From positions 5,638,501 through 5,702,500 of the forward strand of contig NZ_CP092183.1 in assembly GCF_023499255.1 (NCBI RefSeq): a DNA stretch of 64,000 nucleotides, in the 5' to 3' direction. The translations under genes were made by a program, and so were the position numbers. This document shows positions 19,782 to 37,014 of this stretch, piece after piece (position 1 is the first letter of the stretch; every line of letters begins with the position of its first letter). The notes under the pieces were generated by a model. The model searched no databases. It had not been told where the DNA came from and saw only the letters and a program-made list of their open reading frames with translations. Source of the stretch: Couchioplanes caeruleus (lineage in GTDB: Bacteria; Actinomycetota; Actinomycetes; Mycobacteriales; Micromonosporaceae).

Positions 19782-20046
19782 ACCGGTCGCCGACCTGCTG
19801 TCCCGCTCGTCAAAACACCTACGCGCCCGCTACCAGAACCACTACGGAGCAGCAACTATCCCCTCCACACCTTCACGAAGAAACACGCCGATCGGGTCCG
19901 GTTGTGCAACCTTGCCGACGTCCTGCCAGCCGTCGCCACAGCCCTGCTCTAGCCCTGGCGGACAAGCGTGTCGAGCCCGTTACCGGCCATGGGGGGGGGT
20001 GTCCCTATGGCTTCTGTCAAGCGGCAAGGGCGAGCTTGTCTGCCGG

Positions 20047-20765
20047 TTAGCGCTGGTAGGGCGTTGCGGTGCGGAGCATGGCGTGCAGGACGTCGACACG
20101 ACGGCGGGCCAGGCAGATGAGGGCAGCGTTGTGTTTCTTGCCTTCGGCACGTTTCCGGTCGTAGTAGGCCCGGCTGGCCGGGTCGGCCAGAGCGGCGAAC
20201 GCAGACAGGAAGAACGCGCGTTTGAGCTGCTTGTTACCGCCCTTGGGCGGGTGTTCCCCGCGGATGCTAGTGCCGGAACGCCGGGTGACCGGTGCCAGGC
20301 CGGCGTAGGCAGCCAGATGGCCGGAGCTGGGAAACGCGGCGACGTCGCCGACTTCGAGCAGCATCCGAGCTGCGGTCCTGACCCCGACACCGGGCATCGA
20401 GATCAGGACCGAGGAAAGAGGGTGAGCATCGAGCATCCCCTCGACCTGCTCGGCGAGCTGCTCGCGCTGTTTGAGCAGCTCTCGCAGGTTGTCGGCAAGC
20501 CGCGGAAGGATCGTCTCGGCTGCGGTGGAGCCCGGGACGACGACCGTCTGGGCGTCAAGGGCGGTGAAGATCGCCTCGACCAAGCGAGCTCCCATGCGCG
20601 GTGCACGTGGCTTGACGATCTCCGTCAGTTTCGACCGGCCGGCCTTGCGCAGCCCGGCCGGGCCGGCGCACCGCGACAGCACTTCCAGGACCGCGGGATG
20701 CTGCACCTTCGGGCACAGCACCCGCTCGAGCGGCGGGTGGATCTGAGTGAGCAGACCACGGATCC
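20047..20765 (-). pseudogene. IS110-family transposase, N-terminally truncated
   Basis: The minus strand carries the C-terminal transposase_20 half: coiled coil (LRELLKQREQLAEQVEGML), SMPGVGVRTAARMLLEVGDV, AAYAGLAPVTRRSG and GNKQLKRAFFLSAFAAL. Coding similarity fades at RGLLTQIHPPLERVL near 20,762. The N-terminal RuvC-like DEDD domain is missing, replaced by unrelated sequence read on the other strand, so it cannot transpose by itself. Confidence 0.82.
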
Positions 20766-21661
20766 GACAGCATGGCTCACCGCCGTACCGGCGCTTGCCT
20801 GGTCCGAGATCGTGGCTCGCAGATCGCCGCTGGTCGCTTATCTGTGCCGCAGCGAGATTCTGTCCGCGGGCGCGGTTGCCCGGCACATCGTCGAACCCAA
20901 TGTCATCTACACAAGCGGTACGGAGGACACGGCCCAGTCCGCTTTCGGATATCGCATCGGGATGACGATGGCGGAATGGGCCTGCCGCGGCCTGATGGGT
21001 CTGGGGCCGACGCTTCACGCGGAGATTCGGGCCCCAGTCGGTCATGGACCTGCGTGGACGCCGTCGCTGGGACTGCCAGACCTCATCGGATATCACCCCG
21101 TGACAGGGCTCCCCTGGATTGTCGAGGCCAAAGGAGGACGCCGGCTCGCTGCGGATTCTTCCGATCGGACCGGGTGTCGAGAGTCGGCGCAGCCAACGTG
21201 GCGGAGCTGCAACGGTCACGCTCCTCGAGGACGACGAGTCCACACGGGTGGAGCGGCAGGCAGCTCGCCAGGATCCGTGGTATCTGCAGCGACCTGGCGA
21301 GCATCGGCTCGACATGCTCACCGGTGCCGTACCCGGCACCGACCTCGTCCTTGGCATGTCCCGGCGTTTGTACGCAGCCTGCGAAGAATTCGCGCTGCAA
21401 CAGGAGCAGATCGCGGTGATGGTGGATCAGGAGATCCCGCGCCCGGACCGCGACGAAGCTGACGACGTTGCAGATCAGATCAATGCCGCACGGAGGCGAT
21501 TGCTGTACCAGGAGGTTGACAGGTCCGAGGCAAGAACCCGTACGCGCGAAGCGTTCGAATCGGCGCAGGATCGCCAATGGCGGTCGCTGATCGACCGTCC
21601 CGCGCGGCTCACCCCGGAACCTGAACAGAATGTCTTGGAAGCGGCGACCGAAGACACCTAT

Positions 21662-22592
21662 CTAGGGCGTGTTTGGTAAGTCATCGGAGCCACTCACCGA
21701 TGGCAGCGACTCGGACGGTGGCGAGGTAGCGGACTGCGAGTTTGTCGTATCGAGTCGCGACGGCTCGGTGCCGCTTGAGCCGGTTGATGCCGCACTCCAC
21801 CGCATGACGCTGCTTGTAGATCTCCGGGTCGAACGCCGGTGGCCGGCCACCGGCCGAACCACGCCGTAGCCGATGCCCGACCTGGTCGGCCGGCTCACCG
21901 ATGGTCGCCCGGATGCCACGCCGGCGCAGCTCAGCACGGTTACCGCGGGAGCTGTAAGCCTTGTCGGCCAGGACCCGATCCGGTCGAGTCCTGGCCCGAC
22001 CCGGCCCTCGGCGCGGCACCCGGATACCGGCCAGGACCGCACCGAACTGCGGGCTGTCCCCGGCTTGTCCAGCAGTGACCAGCATCGACAGCGGACGCTG
22101 ACCTTGCTCGCAGGCCAGATGCAGTTTCGTGCTCAGCCCGCCGCGTGACCGGCCGAGGGCGTGGTCGTTGGGTTCGGTGTCCACTCCACCCGGCGGATGT
22201 TTCTGATCGTCCCCCATTTGCGGGCGCCGGCGGCATGCTGATGCGCCCGGCACACCGTCGAGTCGACCGACACGTCCCACGTGATGATCTGTCCCGCGTC
22301 CGCCGCCGCCTGCAACCGGGTCAGGATCTGCACCCACGTGCCGTCGCGCTGCCACTGCCGAAACAACCCATACGCGGTTTCCCACGGCCCATAGCGTTCA
22401 GGCATGTCCCGCCACGGCGAGCCGGTACGCACCCGCCACCGGATCGCGTTGATCACCATGCGCCGGTCCCGAGGCGGGCGTCCCATCCGCACCTCGGGCA
22501 GCACCGCCTCAAGCCTGGCCCATTGATCATTCGTCAAGTCACCACGCGCCACGCAAACTCAACGAACGATCAACATTCCAAACACGCCCTAG
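21662..22592 (-). mobile_element. IS5-family (two-frame transposase) insertion sequence
   Basis: Ends are inverted repeats CTAGGGCGTGTTTGG (from 21,662) and its complement (to 22,592). The target duplication is TA, or CTAG if the outer bases are counted as target; palindromic CTAG makes this ambiguous. The transposase is split across two overlapping minus-strand frames. The element sits within a nuclease-like pseudogene whose frame is restored on its removal. Confidence 0.87.
21681..22552 (-). CDS. IS5-family transposase made from two frames
   Basis: The first frame (22,552 to 22,133) begins [20 protein letters not shown] and holds the N-terminal domain plus the first Asp ([16 protein letters not shown]). 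The second frame (to 21,681) continues [19 protein letters not shown], then [14 protein letters not shown] (second Asp) and [22 protein letters not shown] (Glu). The shift between frames is near 22,145-22,190. Elements of this group commonly use programmed frameshifting, so this is probably functional. Confidence 0.83.
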
Positions 22593-22760
22593 CCGTGGAT
22601 GCACGAACCGCCGAGCTGGCGATGCCGCGCCGGTGACGAGCGGGTTCCGGTGTACAAACGCTGATTTCACGGCCGCCTGGAGTCTCATCCAGGCGGACCG
22701 ACGACCTGTCTGCGGACCGCGACCCAAGTTCGCCAGCTCATCGGTGTCGGAGAGGGTTAG

Positions 22761-24302
22761 GTGTCCCGGACTGGGGACGCGTGGCGCGGGCCGCCCGCTG
22801 CCATCCCCATGGTGGACGATGAGGGCGTGAGCCAGGACATGCACCGGCAGCTGACCACCGCGATCCGTGATCTGCTCGAGTTTTCATGGCAGCACCGGGG
22901 CGACCTGATCGCCGCCGACTCCGAGCACGCCGAAGATCTTGCCACCCACCTGCGGGCCGTCAACGCGGCCGCCACTGCCGCCGCGCAGGCCAGCGGATAC
23001 CTTCATGTCGCCAACGACGAAGCTCCCCTAGACCCGGCCGACGGCATGTGGGGTCGGAAGCTGAACGTTCGAACGTTACGCACGTTGGGGATCAGCGGCC
23101 TGCCACAAACCCGTAGCCATCCTGCTCCACCCGCAGACGTCGTCGAGGACCTCGCCGCATACCTCGCCGGGCCACACGTGCCGTGCGAGCGGATGTTCGT
23201 CATCGACGCAGACCTACCACTCGACCGCCCGCGCACGGTTGCAGGCTGGCGCATGGAGAGGCTGCGGGCCAGCGAACTTGTCCCGCTCACCCCGTTACCG
23301 TCGACTCGTGAGTTCGCTGACGATCCGTGGGACGAGGCGTTGAGTCTGGGCGGCTGCGTCGTCCTGCGCCGCGACACCGGCGATATCCGTCCGCGCGTCA
23401 GCACGATGTTCCCGGCCTGGCTCGGCGCCGACTTGGCTGAGCCCGAAGTACGGATCGCCGCGTGGGGGCCGATGCTGCTGCTGAACCTGGCCGCGACAGA
23501 CCGAGTTGTGGTGGCCGCCGAATACGAAATTGAGCCGGGCCGGGTTGTCGACCGCATCCGCGGGACAGGAGTCGGCCTGAGCGTCGACGGGGACGATGTC
23601 GATACCTGGGACGTTCCCGCATGGGGTCCATATCGACCGCTGTCCGCCGAACTGGACGACATGCTGACCGCGACCGCGGCGCTCGAACCGTTCCTGGCCG
23701 CGTTCCAAGCCCGGCCACAGGCGCCCAAGGACGTACGAGAGCGGGTACAGAAGGCCGAGGGGCGGCTGCGGCGCAGCACTCATCGACTGCTGGCCCAAGG
23801 CCCGCGCCTGGGCGTCGATGGAGACGTCGTATCGCCACGGGACCGTGCGGAGGTCCTGTTCTGGTTCATATCCGCTCTGGAGCACCTACTGATCCCCGAG
23901 AAGGGCGGCGGTGACTTCAGCAGGAAGGTCGCCCAACGAACCGCAATGATGATCGGTGACGACGACGAGGATCGGCTGACCGTCCACCGCGACGTAGCCC
24001 GTTGCTACAGCTTGCGTTCCCGATTCGCGCACGGGGACGCAATCGAGCCGGAAGACCTCGATGTCCTTCCCACCAAGGCGTACGGCTACCTGCGGGAGGT
24101 CCTGCGAGCGCTGATCATCCTCGGCCCGCATTTCAAGGTCGCCGACACGTGCGACGACGCACTGGTGTCAGCCAGCGTGCGAGCCGAGCAGATCACCGAT
24201 CCGGTGTCCGCTGTCGTCGACACTTTACCGGCGGATCTACGTGCCCTTCGCACCCCGGCCGACCGTCTACACCACCGGCCGCGCCGCCGCCGGCGCGCCT
24301 GA
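22761..24302 (+). CDS. Large protein with C-terminal HEPN (Apea-like) ribonuclease motif
   Basis: 513 residues from GTG 22,761; an ATG at 22,809 or a GTG a few codons later are alternatives, and no site stands out. The C-terminal third is helical and holds SLRSRFAHGD, where R419-x4-H424 matches the HEPN RNase motif, in a context (LFWFISALEHLLIPEKGGG before it) typical of Apea-like HEPN domains. The N-terminal ~300 residues have no recognised motif and may sense a trigger. HEPN proteins of this type are found in abortive-infection and toxin-antitoxin modules. No antitoxin partner is adjacent; the gene stands alone. Confidence 0.7.
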   Translation: MSRTGDAWRGPPAAIPMVDDEGVSQDMHRQLTTAIRDLLEFSWQHRGDLIAADSEHAEDLATHLRAVNAAATAAAQASGYLHVANDEAPLDPADGMWGRKLNVRTLRTLGISGLPQTRSHPAPPADVVEDLAAYLAGPHVPCERMFVIDADLPLDRPRTVAGWRMERLRASELVPLTPLPSTREFADDPWDEALSLGGCVVLRRDTGDIRPRVSTMFPAWLGADLAEPEVRIAAWGPMLLLNLAATDRVVVAAEYEIEPGRVVDRIRGTGVGLSVDGDDVDTWDVPAWGPYRPLSAELDDMLTATAALEPFLAAFQARPQAPKDVRERVQKAEGRLRRSTHRLLAQGPRLGVDGDVVSPRDRAEVLFWFISALEHLLIPEKGGGDFSRKVAQRTAMMIGDDDEDRLTVHRDVARCYSLRSRFAHGDAIEPEDLDVLPTKAYGYLREVLRALIILGPHFKVADTCDDALVSASVRAEQITDPVSAVVDTLPADLRALRTPADRLHHRPRRRRRA

Positions 24303-24746
24303 CCGGCGGCCCGGTTAGCAGCGCTCATCAGCTGCACCCCCGGGTCCGATTGCTTGAAGCGTCCTGGGTCTGTCATCCCGCACTGCCGGATCGAACTGAC
24401 CCGGCTCCGTCGTGACTGTGGTCCAGGTACCTGAGTCGACACGTCAGGGACGAGTATGCGTCTGTTCCTTGCGAGCACATCAGCGTGCTTGACGAACTTC
24501 TCTAGGAGGGCTGCCCCGGCCTGCGCTGAACCAGAACTTGCGGCATGCCCCTGACAACGCGGCTACACCGCCGCGTCCGGCGGTCATCATCCTCAACCGC
24601 GCTCGCTCTTCACGGCCCCAGGCAATCCGAGCACTGGCTCGACGAACGCCCCGATCGCCACGTGGGTCGGCGCTGGGATCTGGGTACACGTCTTTACCAT
24701 CGCCATCGACTGAGCACGCTGGAAGATCGTTTCTGGAACTTTTACC
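24303..24746. other. Non-coding stretch between convergent genes
   Basis: A 5-bp stem with 4-nt loop (24,302-24,315, ACCGG...CCGGT) directly follows the HEPN gene stop, a weak terminator candidate. Nothing else is supported. Confidence 0.35.
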
Positions 24747-25847
24747 TTACTTCCATGCCGCCAGCACATGGCCAACGTTCGGAGCATTCTTTGTGAAGGT
24801 GGTACGCCAGTCGAGACGCTTCCGGTGTTGGAGGTATCCCACGACGACGATCCGGGCGACTCCTAGTTCGGTAGCAGCCTGGTCGATCCACGAACTGCTT
24901 ATGCGTGCCGGAACGTTAAGTTGTCCGCTTGGGAAGATGCACGCAGAGGCCAAATTATTTGCTTCCGCCTCTTGAGCCGACTCATGGCTGCCCTTGTTAT
25001 CAATCTCCTCGGCGATGATGCGCTCTACATCCACATGCCCTCGGAGTACATGCGCGACCTCGTGGAGGAGGGTAAACAGGACTTTATCAAGACGCTGCCC
25101 CCTCCCCGAGAGTCCGATAACGGGATAGCCGTCGACATACATGGCACAGCCGTCTATCTTGCCACCCGGAAGCATCTCTACGTAAACCAGCCTTACACCG
25201 ACTTCCGCGAACAACTCAGGTAAGGGGAAGAATGCGTCTGACGTCTTGAGAATTCGAGGCAGGGAGCGGGCAAGGTCTTCCAGCCCGGCGGCTGAATAGC
25301 TTTTCCTAGGAGGCAGTTCGCGTGCCTTCTTACGGACGCACGCTACCCAGGCGCCTTGAAGAACGCTGATCTCTTCGCCCTGGTTGCCACGCCTCGCCGC
25401 AGCAGCGAATTCCGGTTCCGCGTCTAGCGAACTGAGCTCGAACAAATTCATAACTTCGGCCTCGAGTTCGTCGAGTGTGTCGCCGACGAGGAGCTTGCGT
25501 TTGCGAAGCAACTGGATGGGAGCTTTGCTATTGAGAAGCGCGCGCCGGCGCACTTCTTCCAGCTTCCCCTGGGTGGCTTTGTTCTTGACTTGTTCGGCAA
25601 GTAGATATTGATCCTGAAGCCTCAGCCAATACTCGGCCGATAGGCCTAGCGCGGCACCAATCTGGGCCGCCGATTCCCTGGTGATCTCCTTCTTGCCAGT
25701 CACGATCTCGGAGACGAACTGGGTCGGCCGATCGAGGACGGCGGCAAAATCGGCCTGAGACCAACCCCTGGCTTCCAACTCCTCACCAAGGAGTTGCCCC
25801 ACCGGGGTCTGGCGAGGCGGCAGTGGGTCGCGTTCAGGTTTGCTCAT
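24747..25847 (-). CDS. higA: HigA-type antitoxin with ImmA/IrrE metallopeptidase domain
   Basis: 366 residues. The N-terminal ~80 form an XRE helix-turn-helix of the HigA class (GEELEARGWSQADFAAVLD, then ALGLSAEYWLRLQDQYLL). The C-terminal domain has a zinc-peptidase motif H262-E-x-x-H266 (FTLLHEVAHVLRGH) and a downstream Glu in SHESAQEAEANNLA, as in ImmA/IrrE. Such proteins repress their own operon and can be inactivated or act by proteolysis after a stress signal. The start overlaps the upstream toxin stop by 4 nt (ATGA). The control region is likely the palindrome at 26,265-26,283. Confidence 0.87.
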   Translation of the reverse strand: MSKPERDPLPPRQTPVGQLLGEELEARGWSQADFAAVLDRPTQFVSEIVTGKKEITRESAAQIGAALGLSAEYWLRLQDQYLLAEQVKNKATQGKLEEVRRRALLNSKAPIQLLRKRKLLVGDTLDELEAEVMNLFELSSLDAEPEFAAAARRGNQGEEISVLQGAWVACVRKKARELPPRKSYSAAGLEDLARSLPRILKTSDAFFPLPELFAEVGVRLVYVEMLPGGKIDGCAMYVDGYPVIGLSGRGQRLDKVLFTLLHEVAHVLRGHVDVERIIAEEIDNKGSHESAQEAEANNLASACIFPSGQLNVPARISSSWIDQAATELGVARIVVVGYLQHRKRLDWRTTFTKNAPNVGHVLAAWK

Positions 25848-26167
25848 TTGGCTTCCATCTCGGGAGTCAAGAGTTCGAAGACGACGGCACCGTAGCTGTC
25901 GGAGTTCTTGAAGGTGAGGTCAATCAAGCGACCGGAGCTCAACACCGCCTGAGCCTTGCCCGGAAGGCCGTAGCCGGCTGACCTAATGCGCAACACGCGC
26001 ATGTTCCGAAGGTCGGTGTCGACGTGCGCCGCCCGCGCGCACTGAACGAGACGATGAAACTCCGCGATCTCCTGAGCACTCCAGCCTTTCGGATGGAACT
26101 CAGGTTCGACGGCGAGACGACGCAGAGTCTCATCCAGGTACTCCCGTTCCACGCGTTCATTCTCCAT
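25844..26167 (-). CDS. higB: HigB/RelE-like toxin candidate, partner of the ImmA-type antitoxin
   Basis: About 107 residues from ATG 26,167 (GTG 26,170 adjoins; the longer frame to 26,245 crosses the control region). The C-terminus reads RNMRVLRIRSAGYGL, KAQAVLSSGRLIDLTF, AVVFELLTPE, a beta-sheet pattern compatible with a RelE-fold mRNA interferase. Typical catalytic Arg/Lys/Tyr positions cannot be assigned with confidence. Toxin-first order and translational overlap with a HigA-ImmA gene support the role. Confidence 0.6.
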   Translation of the reverse strand: MENERVEREYLDETLRRLAVEPEFHPKGWSAQEIAEFHRLVQCARAAHVDTDLRNMRVLRIRSAGYGLPGKAQAVLSSGRLIDLTFKNSDSYGAVVFELLTPEMEAK

Positions 26168-26264
26168 CACCCATTGGCTGATGACGTGCACTCCAACAGC
26201 CGACGCTACACGTGCCCTACACCGGTCAGGGAGCGCCGAACACACCGAGAGCTCGTCATACTTA

Positions 26265-26283
26265 CATCACCCCTGGGGTGATG
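26265..26283. promoter_or_regulatory. Perfect 9-bp inverted repeat, probable operator between the TA pair and the Ubl operon
   Basis: CATCACCCC (26,265-26,273), a 1-nt centre, then GGGGTGATG (26,275-26,283). It lies 98 bp upstream of the higB start on the minus strand and 140 bp upstream of the Ubl start on the plus strand. A dimeric XRE-type repressor such as the neighbouring HigA is the obvious candidate binder; whether it also controls the Ubl operon is unknown. Confidence 0.6.
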
Positions 26284-26422
26284 GGGTGTATGCTTCGGGC
26301 AGCAAGGTCTCCTTGGAGATCGCGCTGTTGGCGCTACGGCACTGCGGGGGTCGCGGTACAGCGGTGCCAGCCGTCAGCACCTCACCGCAACCGGTGGTTC
26401 GCCGGAGATCAAGGACAACAAG

Positions 26423-26689
26423 ATGAGCAACGACAAGCACGACACCGTCACGGTGACCTACAACGGCGCCGACGAGGACGTCCGCTACCAGCCGAACGCC
26501 GCGATCCAGGCGCTGCTGCAGCAGGCCAAGCACGCGTTCGCCCTGCAGAACAGCCCGAACAACCACCTCCTGGCGCTGTTCACCGGGGACGGCGTCGAGC
26601 TTGACGACAACCAGTCCGCGGCCGACGCCGGCGTGAAGCCCGGCATGCTGCTCGTGCTGCGCCAGAGCACCGTCAAGGGCGGCTCGTGA
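26423..26689 (+). CDS. Ubiquitin-like beta-grasp protein ending in Gly-Gly-Ser
   Basis: 88 residues, start preceded by AAGGA. The pattern HDTVTVTYNGADEDVRYQP (two strands), AAIQALLQQAKHAFAL (helix), LLALFTGDGVELDDNQSAA and PGMLLVLRQ (closing strands) matches a small ubiquitin-like fold of the DUF2604/multi-ubiquitin type. The tail VKGGS carries a Gly-Gly one residue from the end, so removal of Ser would expose a conjugation-ready di-glycine. First of three overlapping genes with a JAB peptidase and an E1-like enzyme. Confidence 0.8.
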   Translation: MSNDKHDTVTVTYNGADEDVRYQPNAAIQALLQQAKHAFALQNSPNNHLLALFTGDGVELDDNQSAADAGVKPGMLLVLRQSTVKGGS

Positions 26690-27129
26690 ATCGGGTGCGG
26701 CTGCCGCGGCGCCTGCTGCAGGACTCGTTCGACCAGCTGCGCGCCTGTGGTGCCGGACACGCCGAGTGCGTCCTGTACTGGTGCGCCGCCCGGACCGAAC
26801 CTGACCTGCTGACCCGCCTGGTGCACCCGGTGCACCAGGCGGGGCCTCGCGGGTACGACGTCGACTCGACCTGGATCACCAGGTTCTTCCTCGACCTGCG
26901 GCGCACGGGGCAGACCGTCCGCGTACAGGTGCACACCCATCCCCGGCACGCCGGACACTCCGAGACCGACGATCAATTCGCGCTTGCCCCCGCGCCAGGG
27001 TTCCTGTCGCTGGTCATCCCAGACTTCGCGGCCGGGCCAGCCAGCCTCGGCGACACCGTCCTGGTGGAGATGGACCGGAACTGCGACTGGGTACCGCGCC
27101 CGGCCGAGGAGGTGCTCAACGTTGTCTGA
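26686..27129 (+). CDS. JAB/JAMM metallopeptidase (deubiquitinase-like)
   Basis: 147 residues. The start GTG overlaps the Ubl stop (GTGA at 26,686-26,689). JAMM residues are all visible: Glu27 (GHAECVLYW), His83 and His85 (VQVHTHPRH), Ser92 and Asp95 (SETDD). JAB enzymes cleave after Gly-Gly; here the likely job is trimming the terminal Ser of the Ubl and/or removing Ubl from targets. The domain fills the whole protein, so it is a stand-alone peptidase rather than a fusion. Confidence 0.87.
   Translation: MNRVRLPRRLLQDSFDQLRACGAGHAECVLYWCAARTEPDLLTRLVHPVHQAGPRGYDVDSTWITRFFLDLRRTGQTVRVQVHTHPRHAGHSETDDQFALAPAPGFLSLVIPDFAAGPASLGDTVLVEMDRNCDWVPRPAEEVLNVV
27106..27112 (+). promoter_or_regulatory. 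Ribosome-binding site that fixes the E1 start
   Basis: GAGGAGG inside the end of the JAB gene, 9 nt before TTG 27,122. It supports an unusual TTG start overlapping the JAB stop by 8 nt. Confidence 0.65.
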
Positions 27130-28432
27130 AGACATCTACGCCGCACTGGCCCGTACCGCGCTGCTCCTGGAGCGGGACGTGTTCGGCCCGGGTGTGGATC
27201 ACCGAACCATCATTGACGGGCTGCGCGCTACGACTGTCCGGGTCCTCGCTGACCGGCGTAACGTCGCCACCCCAGCCGGGCAGACCGCGCTGGTCACCCT
27301 GTTCGGACAGCTGGCGATGATGGGCCTGCAGATCGACCTCGACGTGCCGGAGATTCCGCTCGTGGCCGAGCAGCCGCCACTACGCGGAGGTCAACTGCTG
27401 GGCGGCATGCTGGACTATGCCGACGACCTGATGCCCGGCGGGTCATCAAACGCCAGGACGCCCACGGTGACGTTCGCCCTCGGCGACACCCCGGCGTCGG
27501 CCGACGCCATACGGGTAAGCGGCACCGGTTGGCGGGCCGACGTCGGCTTGCGCGCCACCAGCATCGCCTGGAACGGAGACGACCAAGTGGGCGCCATGGC
27601 AGCAGCCGCGGCGGCCGCGGCAGACGGGCTCCGGGCCGCCCTGCCGCACACAGCGGAGCGTCTCGGCCGCCCGATGCCGTCGGCTGCCGGCTGGCGGCTG
27701 CTGCCGGAGCGCCAGGTCACCCTCGACCTAACCGACTACCGGACCGGCAGGCCGTCGCAGCTCGGGCACGTTGACGTGATCAGTGGCGGCGCGATCACCA
27801 ACGCCGCGCTCTACGCACTGTTGCGCATGGGCCGGACGACCGCGGCTCTGCGCATCATCGAGCCGGAGCTGCTGGACCTTAGCAACCTCAACCGCTACGC
27901 GCTTGCCCGCCGTAGCTGGATCGACACCGCCAAAACGACCATGCTGAGCTCGTACACCCGCAACGGGCTCTCCATCACCGGCGTTCCGACACGGTTCGAC
28001 CACCGCGCCGCTCAAGCACTCGCACCGATCGCCAAGCACGTGCTGGTGGGCGTCGACCACATCCCATCCCGCTGGCTTGTCCAAGCCGCAGCACCCCACA
28101 GCTGGATCGGGATTGGCGCCAGCTCACACGACTTCGTCCTCGTCTCCGCCCATCCAAGCGGAGCCGCCTGCGCCGGCTGCGTTCACCCGAAGGACGACGA
28201 CACGGATGGACCGATCCCAACAATCTCCTTCGTTTCCTTTTGGGCTGGCCTGATCCAGGCCCTCGAGCTCACGTCCAGCAGCCGCGCGGCACGGCAGTCT
28301 GCCACTCGATCAACCCAGGTCTGGCCACTCGGACTGCACAACCTCCGCGGTCTGCACCGCTACACGCAGGCGCCCGCCCCGAACTGCCCGCTCCATTGCT
28401 CGATGTCACGGCCGGGCCAAGCAGCCGCATAG
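27122..28432 (+). CDS. E1-like (ThiF/UBA family) adenylyltransferase
   Basis: 436 residues from TTG 27,122. The Rossmann region starts VISGGAITNAALYALLRMG (220-238), a variant of the GxGxxG loop. It is followed by RIIEPELLDLSNLNRYAL (244-261), matching the E1 nucleotide-binding signature with its Asn-Arg, a conserved Lys (K271, WIDTAKTTM) and VDHIPSR (311-317). Zinc ligands are C350-x2-C353 and C422-x3-C426. The N-terminal ~215 residues (GTGWRADVGLRATSIAW, GAMAAAAAAAADGLRAALP) form the extra domain often preceding the loop in bacterial E1-like proteins. It should adenylate the Ubl C-terminus. No catalytic-Cys domain or separate E2 is evident. Confidence 0.83.
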   Translation: MSEDIYAALARTALLLERDVFGPGVDHRTIIDGLRATTVRVLADRRNVATPAGQTALVTLFGQLAMMGLQIDLDVPEIPLVAEQPPLRGGQLLGGMLDYADDLMPGGSSNARTPTVTFALGDTPASADAIRVSGTGWRADVGLRATSIAWNGDDQVGAMAAAAAAAADGLRAALPHTAERLGRPMPSAAGWRLLPERQVTLDLTDYRTGRPSQLGHVDVISGGAITNAALYALLRMGRTTAALRIIEPELLDLSNLNRYALARRSWIDTAKTTMLSSYTRNGLSITGVPTRFDHRAAQALAPIAKHVLVGVDHIPSRWLVQAAAPHSWIGIGASSHDFVLVSAHPSGAACAGCVHPKDDDTDGPIPTISFVSFWAGLIQALELTSSSRAARQSATRSTQVWPLGLHNLRGLHRYTQAPAPNCPLHCSMSRPGQAAA

Positions 28433-29054
28433 CGCGCAGGCGCGTCGGAAGTGAGCAAGGCATCCCGCCAGCCCCCAGAGCGTATCCAGCGTTGGCCGTC
28501 CATCGACTTCCTCAAGGCCTGGGCGGTCTGCCGGGATCACTGATTCGCATCAGCCATGATGGTCGGATGCGGCACGTCTGGGCCAGCCACCAGGCAATCC
28601 CCGAGGCCCGGACGATGCTGCATCGAACTTCATTTACGGCAGCATGGCCACGCCCGCGAAGCGGTCGTATAGGAAGGGGTACGGATTCGACGAAGGGCTC
28701 GCGGTACATGTCCTGATCGCGGCGGCGAGCACGACCTCCGCCGATGCGGTTGCCGAGTCAGTTGTCGCAATACATCCTCCGGCACGGACAGGGGCCGAGC
28801 CCCGGTCCGACTGCGTTGGCGATGAGCTGGGAATCCAGCGATCAGTGATGCCGTTGACCGCCTCGCGGCAGCTGAGCACACGTCTCGGGCAGCGCATCCG
28901 TCGAGTGAGGAAATTGCCTCGTCAGCGACCTCACGAAGCAGGGCCAGTGCAGTGCCCGGGCAAGTCTCGCGCGACAGCGTGACGATGGTGAGTCCAAGGC
29001 ACGCCCGGTAGGAGGCGTAGCCAGGCCTACTCGCGTGCATCGACCAGCTCGGGT
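28433..29054. other. Non-coding stretch between the Ubl operon and IS3
   Basis: Several overlapping short frames on both strands, none with a ribosome site or recognisable protein. No E2, RING or other ubiquitin-pathway gene here. Confidence 0.4.
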
Positions 29055-29122
29055 GGGTCTGCTGCACCGATAGGTGACATCTGAGATGGCTTGCCCTGAC
29101 GGCGGGCTGGAAGGATGTTGCT

Positions 29123-29431
29123 GTGCCCAAGCCCTACCCGCGAGAGTTCCGCGATGATGTTGTGCGGGTCGCTCGCGATCGTGAGCCCGGTGTGACGGTC
29201 GAGCAGATCGCCAAGGACTTCGGGGTCCACCCGATGACGCTGTTCAAATGGCTGCGCCAGGCCGATATCGACGCCGGCGCCGAGTCTGGCGTCAGCCGCG
29301 GTGATTCCGCAGAGCTGCGCGAAGCCCGCAAGCGGATCAAGCTGCTCGAGCAGGAGAACGAAGTTCTGCGCCGGGCCGCGGCGTATCTGTCGCAGGCGAA
29401 CCTGCCGGGAAAACGCTCTACCCGCTCGTGA
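29123..29431 (+). CDS. IS3-family transposase orfA
   Basis: 102 residues: helix-turn-helix (VTVEQIAKDFGVHPMTLFKW) followed by a leucine-zipper stretch (RKRIKLLEQENEVLRRAA). The start overlaps orfB by 4 nt, the arrangement used for programmed -1 shifting to make the fused transposase. Confidence 0.85.
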   Translation: MPKPYPREFRDDVVRVARDREPGVTVEQIAKDFGVHPMTLFKWLRQADIDAGAESGVSRGDSAELREARKRIKLLEQENEVLRRAAAYLSQANLPGKRSTRS

Positions 29432-30292
29432 ACGAGCTCGCCGCCGACGGCATCCCCGTCGCGGTGACGTGCCGGGTCCTGAACATCGCTCGACAGCCCT
29501 ACTACCGGTGGCTTGCCCGCCCGGTGACCGACGCCGAGCTGGCCGAGGCCTACCGGGCGGACGCATTGTTCGACGCCCACCGCGACGACCCGGAGTTCGG
29601 CTACCGGTTCCTGGCCGACGAGGCCCGCGCCGCCGGCCGCCCGATGACCGAGCGCACCGCATGGAAGATCTGCTCCGGCATGGGCTGGTGGAGCACGTTC
29701 GCCCGCAAACGGCGACGGGGCAGGGGCGGCAGGCCAGGTCCGCCGGTCCACGACGACCTGGTCAAGCGTGACTTCACCGCAGGCGGCTCGAACCGGTTGT
29801 GGCTGGCCGACATCACCGAACACCGCACCGGCGAGGGCAAGCTCTACCTGTGCGCGATCAAGGACGTGTGGTCCAACCGGATCGTCGGCTACTCCATCGA
29901 TTCCCGGATGAAGTCACGGCTGGCCGTCCAACGCCCTGCACAACGCCGTCGCCCGTCGTGGTGACGTGGCGGGCTGCGTGCTGCACACCGATCGCGGGTC
30001 GCAGTTTCGCAGTCGTAAGTTCGTCCGGGCCCTGAACCAGCACCGGATACTCGGATCGATGGGTCGAGTCGGTGCCGCCGGCGACAACGCCGCCATGGAA
30101 TCGTTCTTCGGTTTGCTGCAGAACAATGTCCTCGACCGCCGGGCCTGGAGCACCCGGCAGCAGTTACGAACCGCGATGGTGACCTGGATTGAACGGACCT
30201 ACCACCGCAGGAGGCGCCAACGAGGCTTGTTCCGGTTGACCCCTATCGAGTACGAGACCATCATGACTCCACCGGCCAGTCAGGCCGCGTGA
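29428..30292 (+). pseudogene. IS3-family transposase orfB, broken by a 1-bp frameshift
   Basis: First part: HTH_21-like domain and first catalytic Asp in LWLADITEH. At about 29,929 the sequence reads GCCGTCCAACGCC; deleting one C gives AVNALHNAVARRGDVAGC and joins the downstream frame, which holds the second Asp (LHTDRGSQF) and Glu (NAAMESFFGLLQNN). The extra C (or a sequencing error) is the only visible defect. Confidence 0.82.
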
Positions 30293-30341
30293 CTTGACCT
30301 GTCACCTATCGGTGCAGCAGACCCGCGGTCGATCAGGTGGT

Positions 30342-31463
30342 TCAAGGTTTGAGGTCGTCGAGGAGCGCGTCGAGGCGGGCTTCCTCGTAGACGCCGTCGG
30401 CGTCCGGAAGCCACTCGGCGGCAGTTGTCAGGGTGAGCAGCTCGGTGAGAAATTGTCGCCCTGCATTGTCACGGTCAGCAGTCACCAGTAGCCGGGTGTC
30501 GGCCGCGGCAAGGCCCCGCAGCAGCATCCAGGCCGCAGCAGACGGCCGACCGTAGATGCATATCAACGGCAGGCCGTTCCGGCCGTACCGGTTGGCAGCG
30601 GCCTCGACGATCGCCGGGTTCTCACATACTCGGATGGTCACCTGCTGTTCCGCTGGCGCCCATGTGCCGTGCAGGGATCGAACGGTCAGCCACACTGGTT
30701 CCCCGCAGTCGGCAGCTGCGTTGGCGATCGCTGCGGCCGCTGACGGTCCGGTCAGTCGCAGGTTCAGCACAAGAACCGTCGAGGACACCTCGTCGCACAG
30801 CACGCCATGCTGCGCCCACACCGATCGCCACAGGTCAGCGGTCAGCGCAGATCCCGCGGCGGCAGCCGCATCGTGCGGATCGGCAATCGCTGCGAGCAGC
30901 CGGGCCGCGACTCGGCCGAGCTCGGTGTCGCGGTCCAGCGCGTGCGGGTCGGTGAAGAGTTGGTTCGCTAGTTCCGGCAGCGGTCGATCACCGCCTGGTA
31001 ACGCTTTCCACAATCGAACCAGATTGTCGGCCCGGCCGGGGACCGGGGTGGCGGCACGATCGAGCCATCGCCGCTCGCGGGCCAGCGCGACCACATTGGC
31101 GGGGATGCCGGCGTCGGCAAGTTGCTGGTAGGCGGCGTCGAGCAAGGCCCGCGCCGCGGCGTCGGCATCAGCTCTTGCCGCGACGCGATCGACCAGCGGG
31201 CCTCCAGTGCGCTCTAGCAGGGCGATAAGGTCGTCGCCGCCCTTGGCTAGCGCTGTCTGCAGCTTGCCGAGCCGGACCGGTTGACCCGAGGTATCCCAAT
31301 TCAGGCCGAGCAGCTGGGCGACCTGAGTGCGGGCGTCTGAATTTAGGTTGACCTTGAGGGTGACACGGGGTCCGGTCCGTCGATGCTCGAAGGCATCTCG
31401 GGCGGCAGCGAGGATCTTGACCGGGCCGGGCAGTTGCGCCCACCTGTCGATTGTCGCGCTCAC
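30342..31463 (-). CDS. jetD: Wadjet type II JetD, Toprim-type nuclease subunit
   Basis: 373 residues of the DUF2399/TIGR02679 type. The C-terminal Toprim region shows IRVCENPAIVEAAANRYG, LICIYGRPSAAAWMLLRGLA and VTADRDNAGRQFL, giving the Glu and the D-x-D acid pair. JetD is the nuclease that cuts closed-circular plasmid DNA once the SMC core has extruded a loop. The start overlaps the jetC stop (ATGA, 31,460-31,463). Last gene of the operon, 17 bp from the IS3 end; its C-terminus (EEARLDALLDDLKP) looks complete. Confidence 0.9.
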   Translation of the reverse strand: MSATIDRWAQLPGPVKILAAARDAFEHRRTGPRVTLKVNLNSDARTQVAQLLGLNWDTSGQPVRLGKLQTALAKGGDDLIALLERTGGPLVDRVAARADADAAARALLDAAYQQLADAGIPANVVALARERRWLDRAATPVPGRADNLVRLWKALPGGDRPLPELANQLFTDPHALDRDTELGRVAARLLAAIADPHDAAAAAGSALTADLWRSVWAQHGVLCDEVSSTVLVLNLRLTGPSAAAAIANAAADCGEPVWLTVRSLHGTWAPAEQQVTIRVCENPAIVEAAANRYGRNGLPLICIYGRPSAAAWMLLRGLAAADTRLLVTADRDNAGRQFLTELLTLTTAAEWLPDADGVYEEARLDALLDDLKP

Positions 31464-34400
31464 ATCGGCACCGTGTCCGATTCCGTCGCGGCGGCATTTC
31501 CGGGCTCCTCGGCCTCCTCTTCGTCAGTTTCCGGCGAGCCCGCGAAGGTGAGGTCGGTGAACAGGTCGGGACCGGCGTATGGGTCGACGGGCCGGGTGGG
31601 CTGCAATGCCTGCGCGGCCACGTCAGCGACGGGGACGATATAGCGGGTGTTGCCGGCCCACAGCGTCAGCGATAGGTCGACGCCTGGCAGCGGCGCCGGG
31701 GCTCGTGCGACATGCCAGATGGCGGCGGCAGGCACCTGCGCTGAGGTGACCAGGGTGTCCGGGCCCGCGAGCATGAAGTCGAGGTCGAAGCCGACGAGCA
31801 TCTTCATCATCGTCGCCTGGTTGCGGGCGTCGACGCCGACGAAGGCCTCGTCGAGCCACAGCGGCCGCGGCGCAAGCGGCGAGTCGGAGTACAGGGTGAC
31901 CAGCGTCGCGAGCAGCGGCTGCAGCAAGGTGACGGCCTTGCCGCCACCGGAGTCGGTGGTGTGTTCTTGCTTTGTCAGCGCCTTCCAGCGGGTGGGGTCG
32001 TTGTCGTGTGCAGCGACTCTGAATTCGCAGACAATGTCGAACCAGGCGCGGTAGTCGAGCAGCGTCGCGACCCGGTCGATCCACTCGTCCGCGCCTGGTT
32101 TGGTCGTGGTGTTGGTTGTCCCGGCCGGGAGTTCCTTGGCTTGCTCAAGTCGGTCGGCGAGGAACAACCGGATCTGCTCCTGCGCGGTCTGGGAAGCGAT
32201 CGCGCCATCCTCGATGGCCTTCAGGATCTTGAAGCCGGCGACATGGTCGGCGGCCGGGTGCCGCCGCAGCCGCAGTGTCATCCGGTCTGCACCAGTCGGG
32301 TGTTGTGCGAGGACGGTGTTCACGTCGTCGAGCAGGGTGATCACCGACTTGAGCCGGTCGGTGAGGTGCTCGACAAACGTTGACGACAGCAGCTCGGTGT
32401 ACATGGTGCTGAGCAGCTCGTCGTGGCTGGCGGACAGTTCTACGACCAGGTCGTCGAGCTGCCGGATCGCGTCCGTTGGCCCGTACTGCTGCCCGGATGC
32501 GTCGACGGTCATCAGTACCTGCGGCAGTGGCCGGCTGTCGTCGGCTTCAACGACCGTGATGGCGCGGCCGCCGGCGGACTCCAGCAGCGACTGCAGCTCC
32601 GCCACCTGGTTGCCGACGACGCGGGACATCAGGGCATTCACTCGGGCTGTCTTCTCCGCCGTGGTGTGCGGCCAGTTCGTGGGCCGCAGGTTCTGCCGGG
32701 CCGCGCGGGCCTGCTCGAGCGCGTCGGCGAGGTCACGGCCGTCATGCGGTGCGGGCAGATTTCGGGCCGCGGCCAGACCCGCGTCGACCGGCACCCACCA
32801 TGCGGTGAACGCTTGTTCACGGATCCGGTCGGCGATGTCGCGCTCGTCGCCGGTCCGCTTCCACGCGCTCTCGGCGGTGGAGGCAGCGCTGGCAAGGCGT
32901 TTGCCTTCCTCGTGGCTGTTGTTGATCGACCGGTCTAGGTCGCTGACCCGCTGCTGCAGCGTGTCTTTGCGGGCGAACAGCTCCTTGTCGTCCTGGTCGA
33001 TCGACTTTTCGGCCTCGGCAGCGCGCTCCGCGGCGCGCACTGCCTCGGCGGCCAGGTCGTGCACGGTCGTTTCCGCTTCGCCAAGCCGGTCGGTGGCCTG
33101 CTCGAGCGCGGTGGTAGCCGCTGCCGCGGATCGTTCCGCGCCGCCTTGCTCGGCCAGCGCGATCCCCAGCCCGGACACGGCCTGCGCTGCCGCGTTAACC
33201 AGGTCGGACACCACTTCGAGCGGCTCGGGCGTCGTGGGCAGGTCATGGTCGGCGGCGAACGCGGCGACCTGCCCGTTGGCGTCCTCGGCGACGCCCTGTA
33301 GCTTCGCGGCTGCTGCGGCGGCGGCCAGATGCAGCTGCTGTGCCCGGTCGCGTTCAGTGTTCGCCGCTGCGAGCGCCGTGGCCGCTGCGGAGACCTCCAC
33401 GTCAGTCGGGGCGTTGTCGTTGGCCTCGCGCAGCATGGCGATGCGCGTGTCGAGCTGGTCGGCGTCGCCGCTCAGCACCTGGGCCGCGGCGCGTTCGTTT
33501 TTCGCCAGTTCGCGCAGCTCGACGATCTGGCGGCGGCGAGCTGCGGCCCGGGCAGCGGCGCCGAGCAGTTCGGCGCCGTGAGCGGCACGTCCGGCGCGGC
33601 CCTGCAGCGCCGGGGTCTGGAACCGGCCGTCAGAAGCGACCGCGACCGGGGCGGCCAGGTCGGCGGTGCCACTCGTGTAGCCGATCCCAGCAAGGATCGC
33701 GGTGACCGTTGCGGTTAGATCTGGCGCGTCGGCTGCGGGCCGTAGCACCTGGGCGAGGCTGTCCCCCGCGATGGGTTCGCCAGCGGTGATGACCACGTCG
33801 TCGCCGTCGCGGGTGGCCGCCCAGAGCCCGTCGTTGGTGACCCACGCGTCGAGCAGGCCTGCCGCGGCAAGCGCTGCTTCCAGGCGGTCGAGGACCTCGG
33901 GTTCGAGACCGTCGACCGGGTCGATCAGCCGCCACAGCGGCGCACCGGCTGGCGACGGCGCGGGACGGTCACGGCGGTGCCAGCCAGCGGGGACCGCCGG
34001 TTGCGGATCAGTGGCACGTTCGAGCTCGTCGGCGTCATCGAGAGCGGCGTGAGCGCGCGCGAGCGCCGCGGTGGCGTCGGCTCGCAGCTGCGACGCCCGC
34101 TGGGCTAGTGGCGTGACGGCCGGGTCGAGCCACTGCCGGTTCAACATGGCGGCGAGGACCTGCCGGGGCCGGGCCGTCGTCGCCTGCGCGGTGACCTGCT
34201 GCAGCCACTGTTCTCGCAGCGCTACCGGCGGCGCGTCGTCGCCGAGACCGACTGCCCACCGTTCCAGCCTGTCGGACAGCTCCTGCAACGCGTCGGTCAG
34301 CTCCTCGGCCGCTCGCGCGGCCATCTCCTGCCGGTCGGTGGACTCCTGGTTGCGCTGCCCGGCGACGTTGTCCGCTGACTGCCACGTCGCCGCCGCCTCC

Positions 34401-35857
34401 GCCGCTGTGCGCATGAGGGCTCGCATTCGGCCGACCAGCCGGCGCCGGTCAGCGACGGCGGCGTCGAGCCGGTCGAGGTCGCCGTCGCCGGCCCATACCG
34501 GCGCGTGCGGGCCGAGGCCAGCCGCGGCTGCGGCGGTGATCGTGTGGTCGATGGCGGCGGTGACCGTGGCTCTGACCGCGTCCAGGGCGGCGGTAGCCCG
34601 CTCCTGGCCGGCCCTTGCCTGATCATGCTCAGCCGTGGCCCGGGTCAGCGCGTTGCGAGCATCATCGGCGTGCCGTTTGGCGGTGGTGGCGTTGTCCCGA
34701 AGTCGGCGGGCGTCGTCCGCGCGGCCGAGGGCACTGCCGTACGCCGCGGACTGCAGCAGCTGGTTGTAGCTTGCCTGCGCGCTTTCCCGGGCGCTTATCA
34801 GCTCGCCGGTCCGCTTCGACTCGGCAGTCAGATCGTCGCGTGCCGCGTCCAGCGCGGCTTTCGCCGCGGTGACTGCTTCGTGCGCACGGTCACAGGCGAC
34901 GTCCGCGTCGAGCAGCGTGTCGGCGGCCAGGCGCAGGACGGCGTCCGCCCATGGGCGCCACAGCCGGTTGACGTAGCCGGTGATGGCGGCCCGGGCGACC
35001 TCGGCGTGGTCCCGGTCGGCGCCGAGCTGCTCGACCTGCTGCCAGCTGCCGGCGAGCTCGGCCACCTCGTCACGATCCAGCGCCGGAAGCGCCGAGCGGA
35101 TCTGGCCGGTGAAGAAGTCCGCGTCGAGGATCTTGCCGAGGTTCGGCGTCCGCAGCGACCGCAGCATCGTCAAGACGGTTCGGTACCGATCCGGGTCGGT
35201 GATCCCGAACAGCTGTGTGGCCACATACCCGGCATAGCCGGTCCGGCCGCTGTCGTGGACGAGAAGCCCTTCGATACCAACTAGGTGTTTCGGTTCGTAC
35301 GCGGCCTGCCCGGCGGCCAGGTCGATCCCGGCGCGGACACGAGCACTGCCACGGCAGGTGATCCACGTCGTGGTCACGTCCTGCACACCACGCTTGGCCT
35401 GCGCGTACAGCAGGCACGTGAAGAACTCCGGGGTGCCGTCATCAGTGATGCGGCCATACTCCACCCACACCCAGCCCCGGTTCGTCGACGACGACGCGTC
35501 ACGGCGGTCCTTGGGATGACCGGACGGCTCGACGTAGTACCGGAACCGTTTGCCAACCTCGCCGAATGTGTCGATCAAGTGCTGCCTAGTCTCGCCCTGC
35601 AGCATGATCAGCGTCGTCAGGGTCATCAACGTCGACTTGCCCGACTGGTTCTGTCCGACCAGCTGCGCACGGCCGTCAGCAAACCAGTACTCGGCGACGT
35701 CGAACTCCCACATCCCGATCGCACCCGCGCGCAGCGGCACCCAGCGGGTCCGGTGCGGTGCGGGCAGCGCACCGGTGGTGGCTGCGTCACGCCACGCGGC
35801 CAGCTGGCCGTCGGTGACATCAGGGCCTGGCTGGTGCGGGATCAGGTGCAGGCTCAT
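31460..35857 (-). CDS. jetC: Wadjet type II JetC, SMC-like ATPase
   Basis: About 1,465 residues from ATG 35,857, which overlaps the jetB stop; the frame open beyond that is shadow. Walker A is GQNQSGKST at residues 68-76. Two long coiled coils follow (many Ala/Arg/Glu heptads, AADRAHEAV- and AAVRAAERAAEAEKSID-type stretches). The C-terminal head has the signature-like TDSGGGKAVTLLQPLLATL and Walker B LWLDEAFVGVD. It matches the TIGR02680 SMC/MukB-like subunit that translocates DNA. Complete and uninterrupted. Confidence 0.92.
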   Translation of the reverse strand: MSLHLIPHQPGPDVTDGQLAAWRDAATTGALPAPHRTRWVPLRAGAIGMWEFDVAEYWFADGRAQLVGQNQSGKSTLMTLTTLIMLQGETRQHLIDTFGEVGKRFRYYVEPSGHPKDRRDASSSTNRGWVWVEYGRITDDGTPEFFTCLLYAQAKRGVQDVTTTWITCRGSARVRAGIDLAAGQAAYEPKHLVGIEGLLVHDSGRTGYAGYVATQLFGITDPDRYRTVLTMLRSLRTPNLGKILDADFFTGQIRSALPALDRDEVAELAGSWQQVEQLGADRDHAEVARAAITGYVNRLWRPWADAVLRLAADTLLDADVACDRAHEAVTAAKAALDAARDDLTAESKRTGELISARESAQASYNQLLQSAAYGSALGRADDARRLRDNATTAKRHADDARNALTRATAEHDQARAGQERATAALDAVRATVTAAIDHTITAAAAAGLGPHAPVWAGDGDLDRLDAAVADRRRLVGRMRALMRTAAEAAATWQSADNVAGQRNQESTDRQEMAARAAEELTDALQELSDRLERWAVGLGDDAPPVALREQWLQQVTAQATTARPRQVLAAMLNRQWLDPAVTPLAQRASQLRADATAALARAHAALDDADELERATDPQPAVPAGWHRRDRPAPSPAGAPLWRLIDPVDGLEPEVLDRLEAALAAAGLLDAWVTNDGLWAATRDGDDVVITAGEPIAGDSLAQVLRPAADAPDLTATVTAILAGIGYTSGTADLAAPVAVASDGRFQTPALQGRAGRAAHGAELLGAAARAAARRRQIVELRELAKNERAAAQVLSGDADQLDTRIAMLREANDNAPTDVEVSAAATALAAANTERDRAQQLHLAAAAAAAKLQGVAEDANGQVAAFAADHDLPTTPEPLEVVSDLVNAAAQAVSGLGIALAEQGGAERSAAAATTALEQATDRLGEAETTVHDLAAEAVRAAERAAEAEKSIDQDDKELFARKDTLQQRVSDLDRSINNSHEEGKRLASAASTAESAWKRTGDERDIADRIREQAFTAWWVPVDAGLAAARNLPAPHDGRDLADALEQARAARQNLRPTNWPHTTAEKTARVNALMSRVVGNQVAELQSLLESAGGRAITVVEADDSRPLPQVLMTVDASGQQYGPTDAIRQLDDLVVELSASHDELLSTMYTELLSSTFVEHLTDRLKSVITLLDDVNTVLAQHPTGADRMTLRLRRHPAADHVAGFKILKAIEDGAIASQTAQEQIRLFLADRLEQAKELPAGTTNTTTKPGADEWIDRVATLLDYRAWFDIVCEFRVAAHDNDPTRWKALTKQEHTTDSGGGKAVTLLQPLLATLVTLYSDSPLAPRPLWLDEAFVGVDARNQATMMKMLVGFDLDFMLAGPDTLVTSAQVPAAAIWHVARAPAPLPGVDLSLTLWAGNTRYIVPVADVAAQALQPTRPVDPYAGPDLFTDLTFAGSPETDEEEAEEPGNAAATESDTVPM

Positions 35858-37014
35858 GAGGCAGGCTCCGCAGGGTCGGTCAGCGTGACGTCTGGGTCGC
35901 GGTATCGGCCGACGACCGGCGACAAGACCCAGCCGCCGTCGCCGGTGACGGTCAGCAGCCCAAGTTCCGACAGCTTCGCCTCCGCGTCGGCGCGGACGGT
36001 GCCGGGCACCGTCTTCTGGAGTTTGTTCATATAGTCGCCGCGCCATCGCAGCAGATCGTCGGCTACCTCGTCGACCTGGTCACTGGTAAGGGTGACGGTG
36101 CCGTCCTGGTGGCGGGTGCCATCGCGGCCGGCGATGTCGGCCATCAGCAGCGCTACCCAGTCCGCTGCTTTCGCGCGGGGCCAGTCGACAACAGTCGCCG
36201 GAACCCGCTCATCGTCGGTAAGCACCAGCAGCAGACCTTCGGTACGCGCTTCCACGGTACCGCCGGTCATCTGCGCAAGGTCGGTCGCACGGAAACCTCG
36301 CTGCCGACGCAGCAGGTCCGCGTCCTCGGGATCCCGGCCCGCATACAACACCGCGGGCAGCTCGAGCAGGTCGCGCAGCTGCCGCAACGCCCGAGCGGCA
36401 TTCAGGGTGTCCGGGTCAGCCGGTTCCGGATTCAACGCCAGCGCGAGCACGTCGGCGCTGGTCATCAGCAGCAGCGGATCCCGGTCAACCTCATACCCCG
36501 CGCCGGGTCCGGTGCCGCCCTCGATCCAATCGTCAAGCATCCGGTCGTCGCTCGTACGCCGGCGCAGCACCCCAATCTGATCGAGATACTCGGCGGCAGC
36601 CCTCAGCTGCCGACGTTGCGCACGGTCGTCCGGGTCGTACGCGGTCACATGCACGCCCGGGGTGGCGCACAGGTCCCGGACCATGTCGGACAGCCGCTGC
36701 AGAGTAACGGTGCCGGACACCTCCTCGCAGCAGGCGGCCAGGCAGCAGATCAGCGCAAGCAGCCGCCGGCCCGGCGCGTCCGCCGGCCGGGGCGGCAGCG
36801 ACACAGTCCCGGCCACCGGGACACGGATCAGGCGGACCGCCCGGCCGATCCGCTGTATCCGATACCCCGGGCGGCGGGCGAACTCGGTGACCGCCTGCAG
36901 GTTGCGCAGCACCAGCCGGTACAGCGGCGGATTCGTCGACGAGGTCACCAGAGGCTGCTCGAGCAGCCCGACGAACGCCCGCTGCGCATCCCGGACCGCT
37001 TCCGCACGGCTCAC
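35854..37014 (-). CDS. jetB: Wadjet type II JetB (DUF2398/TIGR02678), kleisin-interacting subunit
   Basis: 386 residues, helical and winged-helix-like throughout. Landmarks are AQRAFVGLLEQPLV at the N-terminus, GRRLLALICCLAACCEE in the middle and DEVADDLLRWRGDYMNKLQ near the end, as in the MukE/KITE-like subunit. The ATGA overlaps with both jetA and jetC indicate tight translational coupling, needed for fixed complex stoichiometry. Confidence 0.85.
   Translation of the reverse strand: MSRAEAVRDAQRAFVGLLEQPLVTSSTNPPLYRLVLRNLQAVTEFARRPGYRIQRIGRAVRLIRVPVAGTVSLPPRPADAPGRRLLALICCLAACCEEVSGTVTLQRLSDMVRDLCATPGVHVTAYDPDDRAQRRQLRAAAEYLDQIGVLRRRTSDDRMLDDWIEGGTGPGAGYEVDRDPLLLMTSADVLALALNPEPADPDTLNAARALRQLRDLLELPAVLYAGRDPEDADLLRRQRGFRATDLAQMTGGTVEARTEGLLLVLTDDERVPATVVDWPRAKAADWVALLMADIAGRDGTRHQDGTVTLTSDQVDEVADDLLRWRGDYMNKLQKTVPGTVRADAEAKLSELGLLTVTGDGGWVLSPVVGRYRDPDVTLTDPAEPAS

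Follow-up and report, generated by a model that had tools for sequence, protein, structure and literature searches.

A three-gene relative of Bil operons without an E2 or an E1 catalytic cysteine in Couchioplanes caeruleus

A 64,000-nucleotide stretch of the Couchioplanes caeruleus genome (contig NZ_CP092183.1, positions 5,638,501 to 5,702,500; hereafter the window) carries a compact operon encoding a ubiquitin-like protein (Ubl), a JAB/JAMM metallopeptidase and an E1-like enzyme (Table 1). All three genes lie on the forward strand, and neighbours overlap by 4 nt (Ubl/JAB) and 8 nt (JAB/E1). The first-pass annotation had read from the DNA an overlapping operon with a Ubl ending in GGS, a JAB peptidase with its JAMM residues and an E1 with SNLNR and two cysteine pairs, and all of these calls were confirmed. 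It overlooked two features that shape our interpretation, namely that the E1 lacks a catalytic cysteine and that the system is kin to Bil (BilABCD, bacterial ISG15-like; structures 8tyx, 8tyz and 8tz0). The operon is almost certainly a cysteine-less, E2-less Bil relative, a three-gene branch that could be described as a 'minimal Bil'.

Table 1. Operon, divergent unit and other features, in window positions
Feature	Position	Strand	Remarks
Ubiquitin-like protein, DUF2604, BilA-like	26423..26689	+	88 aa; C-terminus STVKGG followed by S
JAB/JAMM metallopeptidase, BilC-like	26686..27129	+	147 aa; GTG start
E1-like enzyme, BilD-like	27122..28432	+	436 aa; TTG start; without catalytic cysteine
Perfect inverted repeat, putative operator	26265..26283	.	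1-nt spacer; divergent intergenic region
HigA-type helix-turn-helix (HTH) fused to ImmA/IrrE (M78) metallopeptidase	24747..25847	-	366 aa
Small gene, HigB-like by position only	25844..26245	-	overlaps higA-immA
Transposase-like frames	29123-30292	+	~0.7 kb downstream of E1; IS3-like as judged by eye
Wadjet type II, complete	30342-38570	-	JetA2-JetB2-JetC2-JetD2
1626-aa protein	13962-18842	-	caspase, HD-CE/iHD-CE and Hsp90-associated wHTH domains
PDC-S11 candidate defence protein	7339-8412	-	NucS-like domain, E 1.8e-147
Large frame	56009-60037	-	STAND NTPase match, sub-threshold
513-aa protein	22761-24302	+	

The first two proteins are of the kinds expected of Bil, a BilA-type Ubl with a GG C-terminus predicted to be processed and a BilC-type JAMM peptidase. 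The Ubl matches Pfam PF10790 (2e-7, above cut-off) and, over part of the model, PADLOC BilA (2.4e-6). The peptidase matches PADLOC BilC (2.2e-10), the BilC structure in the PDB (8tyx; 3.6e-13) and, under its cut-off, Pfam Prok-JAB (9.6e-5), and it carries the JAMM motif HTHPRHAGHSETD plus Glu27. Among the matches listed, query included, [KR]GG plus zero or one residue forms the C-terminal end in 34/34 Ubls, with a single residue past the GG in 30 of the 34. Where Ubl and JAB are fused, the GG lies at the joint in every protein among the matches listed (120/120; 120 of 299 matches), and kinship with Bil is also evident through a fusion relative. Long Ubls of 241-279 aa occur in seven alphaproteobacterial loci, one of which bears the annotation multiubiquitin.

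The E1 has the pseudodimeric BilD fold, with an inactive adenylation domain in residues 1 to ~215 and an active one in ~216-436. The suggestion that its 215 N-terminal residues might hide an E2 domain is thereby ruled out: the model aligns this region with the inactive adenylation domain of BilD, and no E2 match was found there. R258 and K271 are present in 120/120 and D312 in 119/120 aligned E1 homologues (counts per 120 refer here and below to the matches listed), and all three occur in 23/23 rows of the cysteine-less family when aligned with E1s from E2-bearing loci. They align with MoeB Arg73, Lys86 and Asp130, equated as adenylation residues in the available sections of a review (PMC12355090). 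The cysteines kept throughout the homologues are two zinc-type pairs, C350/C353 and C422/C426 in the window E1.

In BilD, according to the accessible portion of another review (PMC11354881), an alpha-helical Cys domain of ~80 residues lies inside the active adenylation domain, where Cys417 accepts BilA from the adenylate; BilB serves as the E2. The window E1 has no catalytic cysteine, either in the crossover loop or in a Cys domain. In a profile alignment, residues 346-431 of 8tyz stand opposite just 7 profile positions, although the stretch after this gap is weak when taken alone (5.8 bits). Counted as ending shortly after the IPT motif, the loop comprises 11-12 residues and no cysteine in 118/118 parsed homologues (two of the 120 listed were unparsed). 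A wider alignment gave no cysteine between CxxC and IPT in 23/23 rows of the cysteine-less family and a crossover-loop cysteine in 8/8 E1s of E2-bearing loci (Sinorhizobium, Rhizobium, two Bradyrhizobium, Natrinema and three alphaproteobacterial genomes), four of them within a long insert. Three further E2-bearing operons also have the E1 cysteine, bringing the count to 11/11 E2-bearing relatives.

A nearly invariant PT..F.S motif (residues 366-372) occupies the site of the former crossover loop. T367 is found in 119/120 listed E1s, the remaining one having Ser, and in 23/23 rows of the cysteine-less family, and S372 is also nearly invariant; the 8 E2-bearing rows have Pro, Ala or Gly at position 367. 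This pattern would fit a route by way of a different E1 side chain, such as an oxyester on Thr367, with the Ubl passed on from there to the target. However, T367 adjoins the start of a helix and may be structural, and we regard such a route as improbable.

The absence of an E2 from the operon and its surroundings, as first noted from the DNA, was borne out by searches with nine E2s chosen from Bil-type loci because their genes lie between those for the Ubl and the JAB. The 8tyz-type E2s among them share C138, H146 and H151, which fits the Cys-Glu-His-His given for BilB in the part of the review at hand (PMC11354881). As phmmer queries and hidden Markov models, the nine recovered their own loci (9/9) and gave no match in 27 E2-less stretches, comprising window positions 20001-36000, 25 relative loci drawn from genome contigs (L001-L025) and L072. 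Two E2 profiles run against the own 8.42-Mb genome matched nothing at E 0.1, E2 families outside Bil not being searched, whereas 8/8 E2-bearing control genomes or plasmids were matched and W05, a plasmid of the E2-less type, was not. PADLOC BilB gave one match in the own genome (E 0.15) and two in 24 other genomes (0.02 and 0.09, both containing a stop), and is by itself a weak test for an E2 because it finds 6/9 of the positional E2s and misses 3/9.

Two of the features that define Bil, a BilB E2 in the operon and the catalytic cysteine of the E1, were thus tested and found absent, and for this reason the system is no Bil member as defined, although it resembles a shortened Bil. It shares the GG-tailed Ubl, the BilC-type JAMM peptidase and the pseudodimeric E1, and its gene order is identical apart from the missing B; it differs in lacking BilB, the catalytic cysteine and the ~80-residue Cys domain, as far as Bil is described in the sources available. 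Our literature search found no account of an E2-less, cysteine-less Bil, the primary Bil and Bub papers' own text lying outside that search.

The 25 relative loci belong to Actinomycetota (including Thermoleophilia), Alphaproteobacteria and Acidobacteriota, with a further one on a Rhizobium plasmid; among plasmid records, 1/9 matching is of the E2-less type, at 36% identity. The E2-less system is sporadic: above threshold, we found it in 3/394 genomes of the window's class, two through partial matches, and in 3/300 genomes of its family, one of which fits a decayed copy in Phytohabitans. In Phytohabitans suffuscus (L023), the E1 copy is decayed and spread over several frames. In an unrooted tree, cysteine-less E1s (33 rows) fall on one side of a branch from the 8 E2-bearing rows (Shimodaira-Hasegawa-like approximate likelihood-ratio test, SH-aLRT, 99), several of the latter being long branches. 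The gene neighbourhood was seen for 19 of the 33, and the other 14 (P-numbered) are cysteine-less by sequence only. The cysteine-less clade spans at least three phyla. The survey of homologue neighbourhoods agreed with the first-pass annotation, with a gene set lacking an E2 common to relatives in at least three phyla; therefore, a local deletion does not explain the window operon, and recent local loss of an E2 is ruled out by the E2-less operons of relatives in three phyla. We infer that the E2 and the E1 cysteine were lost from a full Bil ancestor.

Divergent from the operon lies a unit first described as a HigB/HigA-ImmA pair. The HigA-ImmA part of this description stands: the protein matches HigA at 1.2e-12 (47.5 bits, just under the cut-off of 47.7), HigA structures match its N-terminal part, and it matches M78 above cut-off (6.4e-6), PD-Lambda-2_B strongly (2.4e-34) and capP weakly (7.1e-6). 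The HigB label does not, as the small gene has no match in Pfam, NCBIfam, PADLOC or PHROGs and only chance-like matches, none to a toxin, in the PDB; membership of a known toxin family is unconfirmed in these five resources, and the name is positional only. The palindrome between the two units, CATCACCCC-T-GGGGTGATG, has 9-bp arms that are 100% complementary, occurs as a single exact copy within the window and is a putative operator. A promoter scan of positions 26100-29100 found none.

The link of the operon to a protease-bearing regulator, suspected from the window, was upheld as a recurrent neighbourhood. An ImmA (M78) domain lies within ~6 kb at 13/19 usable loci (the window, L002, L005, L006, L008, L009, L012, L014 and L016-L020), where ~0.007 would be expected per locus from a background of 65 M78 matches in 114 Mb genome-wide, these neighbours included. 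With loci treated as independent, the binomial P is 5e-24, and with close kin collapsed it is 3e-16 (9/15). Left out of the count were L010 (a duplicate of L009), L023 (decayed) and L001, L013, L021, L024 and L025 (incomplete, or short of upstream DNA); L003, L004, L015 and L022 were scored as lacking ImmA on the basis of genome coordinates or a zero count. In 7/13 cases (the window, L002, L005, L006, L009, L012 and L014) ImmA occurs with an XRE-type domain in divergent orientation, that of L005 being under the Pfam cut-off. The ImmA of L008 stands alone on the same strand as the operon. L016-L020 each have an ImmA-UvrD helicase fusion immediately upstream of the long Ubl, with PD-(D/E)XK above cut-off in 4/5. 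Helicase and nuclease genes adjoin L013, L016 and L072; L011 has a RES/Xre toxin-antitoxin pair at the divergent position. Downstream of the Acidobacterial triple (L006:7525-10533), a second ImmA protein is followed by a fusion of a P-loop domain with adenylosuccinate synthetase.

These neighbours recall CapH+CapP, an XRE protein plus an ImmA peptidase, as several relatives' neighbours match the corresponding models (capP in 7/10 and capH in 3/10; at L009, 7.1e-34 and 4.3e-8). In contrast, the window regulator is a HigA-ImmA fusion nearest PD-Lambda-2_B, and that of L002 is nearest RmrA (2.5e-90). The available sections of a 2026 paper (PMC13373217) place CapW or CapH+CapP beside 219/544 Bub operons and report that CapP is activated by single-stranded DNA and cleaves the repressor CapH.

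The setting of the operon also points to defence, which the first reading had raised as one option, with an island that includes a complete Wadjet II, the caspase-HD-CE protein and PDC-S11. On the strength of these neighbours, the operon may have an anti-phage effect. Transposase-like frames and a large frame with a STAND NTPase match lie in the same window, and the 513-aa protein has no match in Pfam, NCBIfam, PADLOC or PHROGs.

The computed gene content, predicted fold, adenylation and JAMM residues, GG tails, absent E2 and cysteine and recurrent ImmA neighbour frame a mechanism whose five steps we infer as reactions and which, as a whole, we judge about as likely to be right as wrong. The HTH-ImmA regulator would act at the divergent promoter region to control the operon, releasing it on infection or DNA damage. 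The JAB peptidase would then take off the residue past the Gly-Gly of the Ubl, and the pseudodimeric E1 would adenylate the exposed glycine. The E1-bound Ubl-adenylate may itself be the donor, attacked by an acceptor docked on the E1, most likely an amine of the target protein, and the modification could be reversed by the JAB peptidase. Direct use of the Ubl-adenylate is proposed because neither thioester step is available to a system that lacks both the E2 and the E1 cysteine, while the parts for glycine exposure and adenylation remain. The first-pass annotation had raised direct transfer by the E1, and the lack of an E1 cysteine that would hand the Ubl over to an E2 adds weight to this idea. 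We tentatively suggest, at somewhat less than even confidence, that in at least three phyla a cysteine-less E1 passes Ubl from the acyl-adenylate straight to its target, without thioester, E2 or E3, under infection control of the ImmA type.

Several observations weigh against the proposed mechanism. Column 330 of the E1 is Cys in 76/120 listed homologues and Gly in the window E1, and a different cysteine might therefore serve in some relatives; a lone Cys just past IPT occurs in L005 and L025. The glycine loop of the window E1, SGGAIT (residues 221-226), is unusual next to the GxGxxG-like motifs of its relatives, and adenylation is counted as probable rather than observed for that reason. Phage records hold no homologue, and the 28 pattern matches obtained in viral contigs included no relative. 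Moreover, among the 25 triple-bearing genomes searched with the profiles, own included, three (G404, G407 and G410) have an E2-like gene elsewhere (E 1.6e-4 or better with the nine-row profile), and two further matches were weaker (0.02-0.07). A remote host E2 could complete the relay on this evidence, making the operon a regular Bil that borrows one component. However, the three E2s sit in separate E2-JAB-E1 operons of their own (L074, L075 and L076) with cysteine-bearing E1s, the own genome has no such gene by Bil-type profiles at E 0.1, and the window E1 has no catalytic cysteine for handing on a thioester; we consider this explanation very improbable, the least likely of those weighed here.

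Thiocarboxylate chemistry like that of Urm1 would equally need no E2, and this too counts against direct transfer. As a sulfur carrier, the Ubl would be adenylated by the E1 and converted to a thiocarboxylate by a sulfur donor, with its tail trimmed by the JAB peptidase, as in siderophore-type ThiS/JAB/E1 operons. For MoeB-MoaD, adenylation alone has been proposed, E2-less ThiS/MoaD-JAB-E1 operons appear in rows 4a-4e of Iyer et al. 2006, as far as that paper is available (PMC1779556), and the accessible part of a review credits Urm1-COSH with modifying proteins without a ligase (PMC12355090). In addition, a DndC-like gene (L012:7988-9064; 1.9e-68) lies ~0.7 kb downstream of the L012 E1, and the gene downstream of the L001 E1 is cobalamin-like by eye. 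The scanned window neighbours and 30 flanking proteins of relatives gave no sulfur or cofactor genes. We consider a sulfur carrier unlikely, if the strongest of the competing explanations. Marginally less probable is a non-covalent sensor in which the E1 binds or adenylates the Ubl as a switch and the JAB peptidase trims or degrades it, with no conjugation. The multi-domain Ubl forms could serve as a scaffold, the ImmA neighbours would suit a sensor, and no acceptor enzyme is known; however, a GG with a removable residue, an intact JAMM and the adenylation residues point to chemistry at the C-terminus.

The Iyer classes 4b-4e (ThiS/MoaD-JAB-E1) likewise have a Ubl, a JAB and an E1 without an E2, but theirs occur with rhodanese, cysteine synthase, SirA or sulfur-assimilation partners, as given in the available portion of the paper (PMC1779556). 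Small archaeal modifier proteins (SAMPs) are conjugated without an E2 or E3, and SAMP E1s lack a eukaryote-type Cys domain (PMC11354881, in part); SAMP1 and HvJAMM1 work as a pair (PMC4443979). Uba4, in the partial account at hand of the Urm1 system, uses an active-loop cysteine, whereas the window E1 has none there and is a BilD-type pseudodimer. Nor is it a single-domain homodimer, the feature that marks the E1s of MoeB/ThiF sulfur-carrier systems. UbaA also has an active-loop cysteine. Type II CBASS (cyclic-oligonucleotide-based antiphage signalling system) resembles our system in using E1 chemistry, through Cap2/Cap3, in defence. It has a JAMM peptidase partner. It differs in that Cap2 is an E1-E2 fusion, as described in the accessible part of a review (PMC12355090), while the window E1 begins with an adenylation domain that has no E2 match.

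The usual account of ubiquitin-type conjugation is of a relay between cysteines. If direct transfer from the adenylate is true, this clade, which keeps the adenylation residues, the GG tail and the JAMM peptidase, would represent a natural two-enzyme tagging system, and what an E1 can achieve from the adenylate alone would be directly testable. Its kinship to Bil makes the system relevant, too, to conversion in either direction between E1-only chemistry and full E1-E2 cascades. Additionally, it suggests a defence module that would be overlooked by any rule demanding all four Bil genes.

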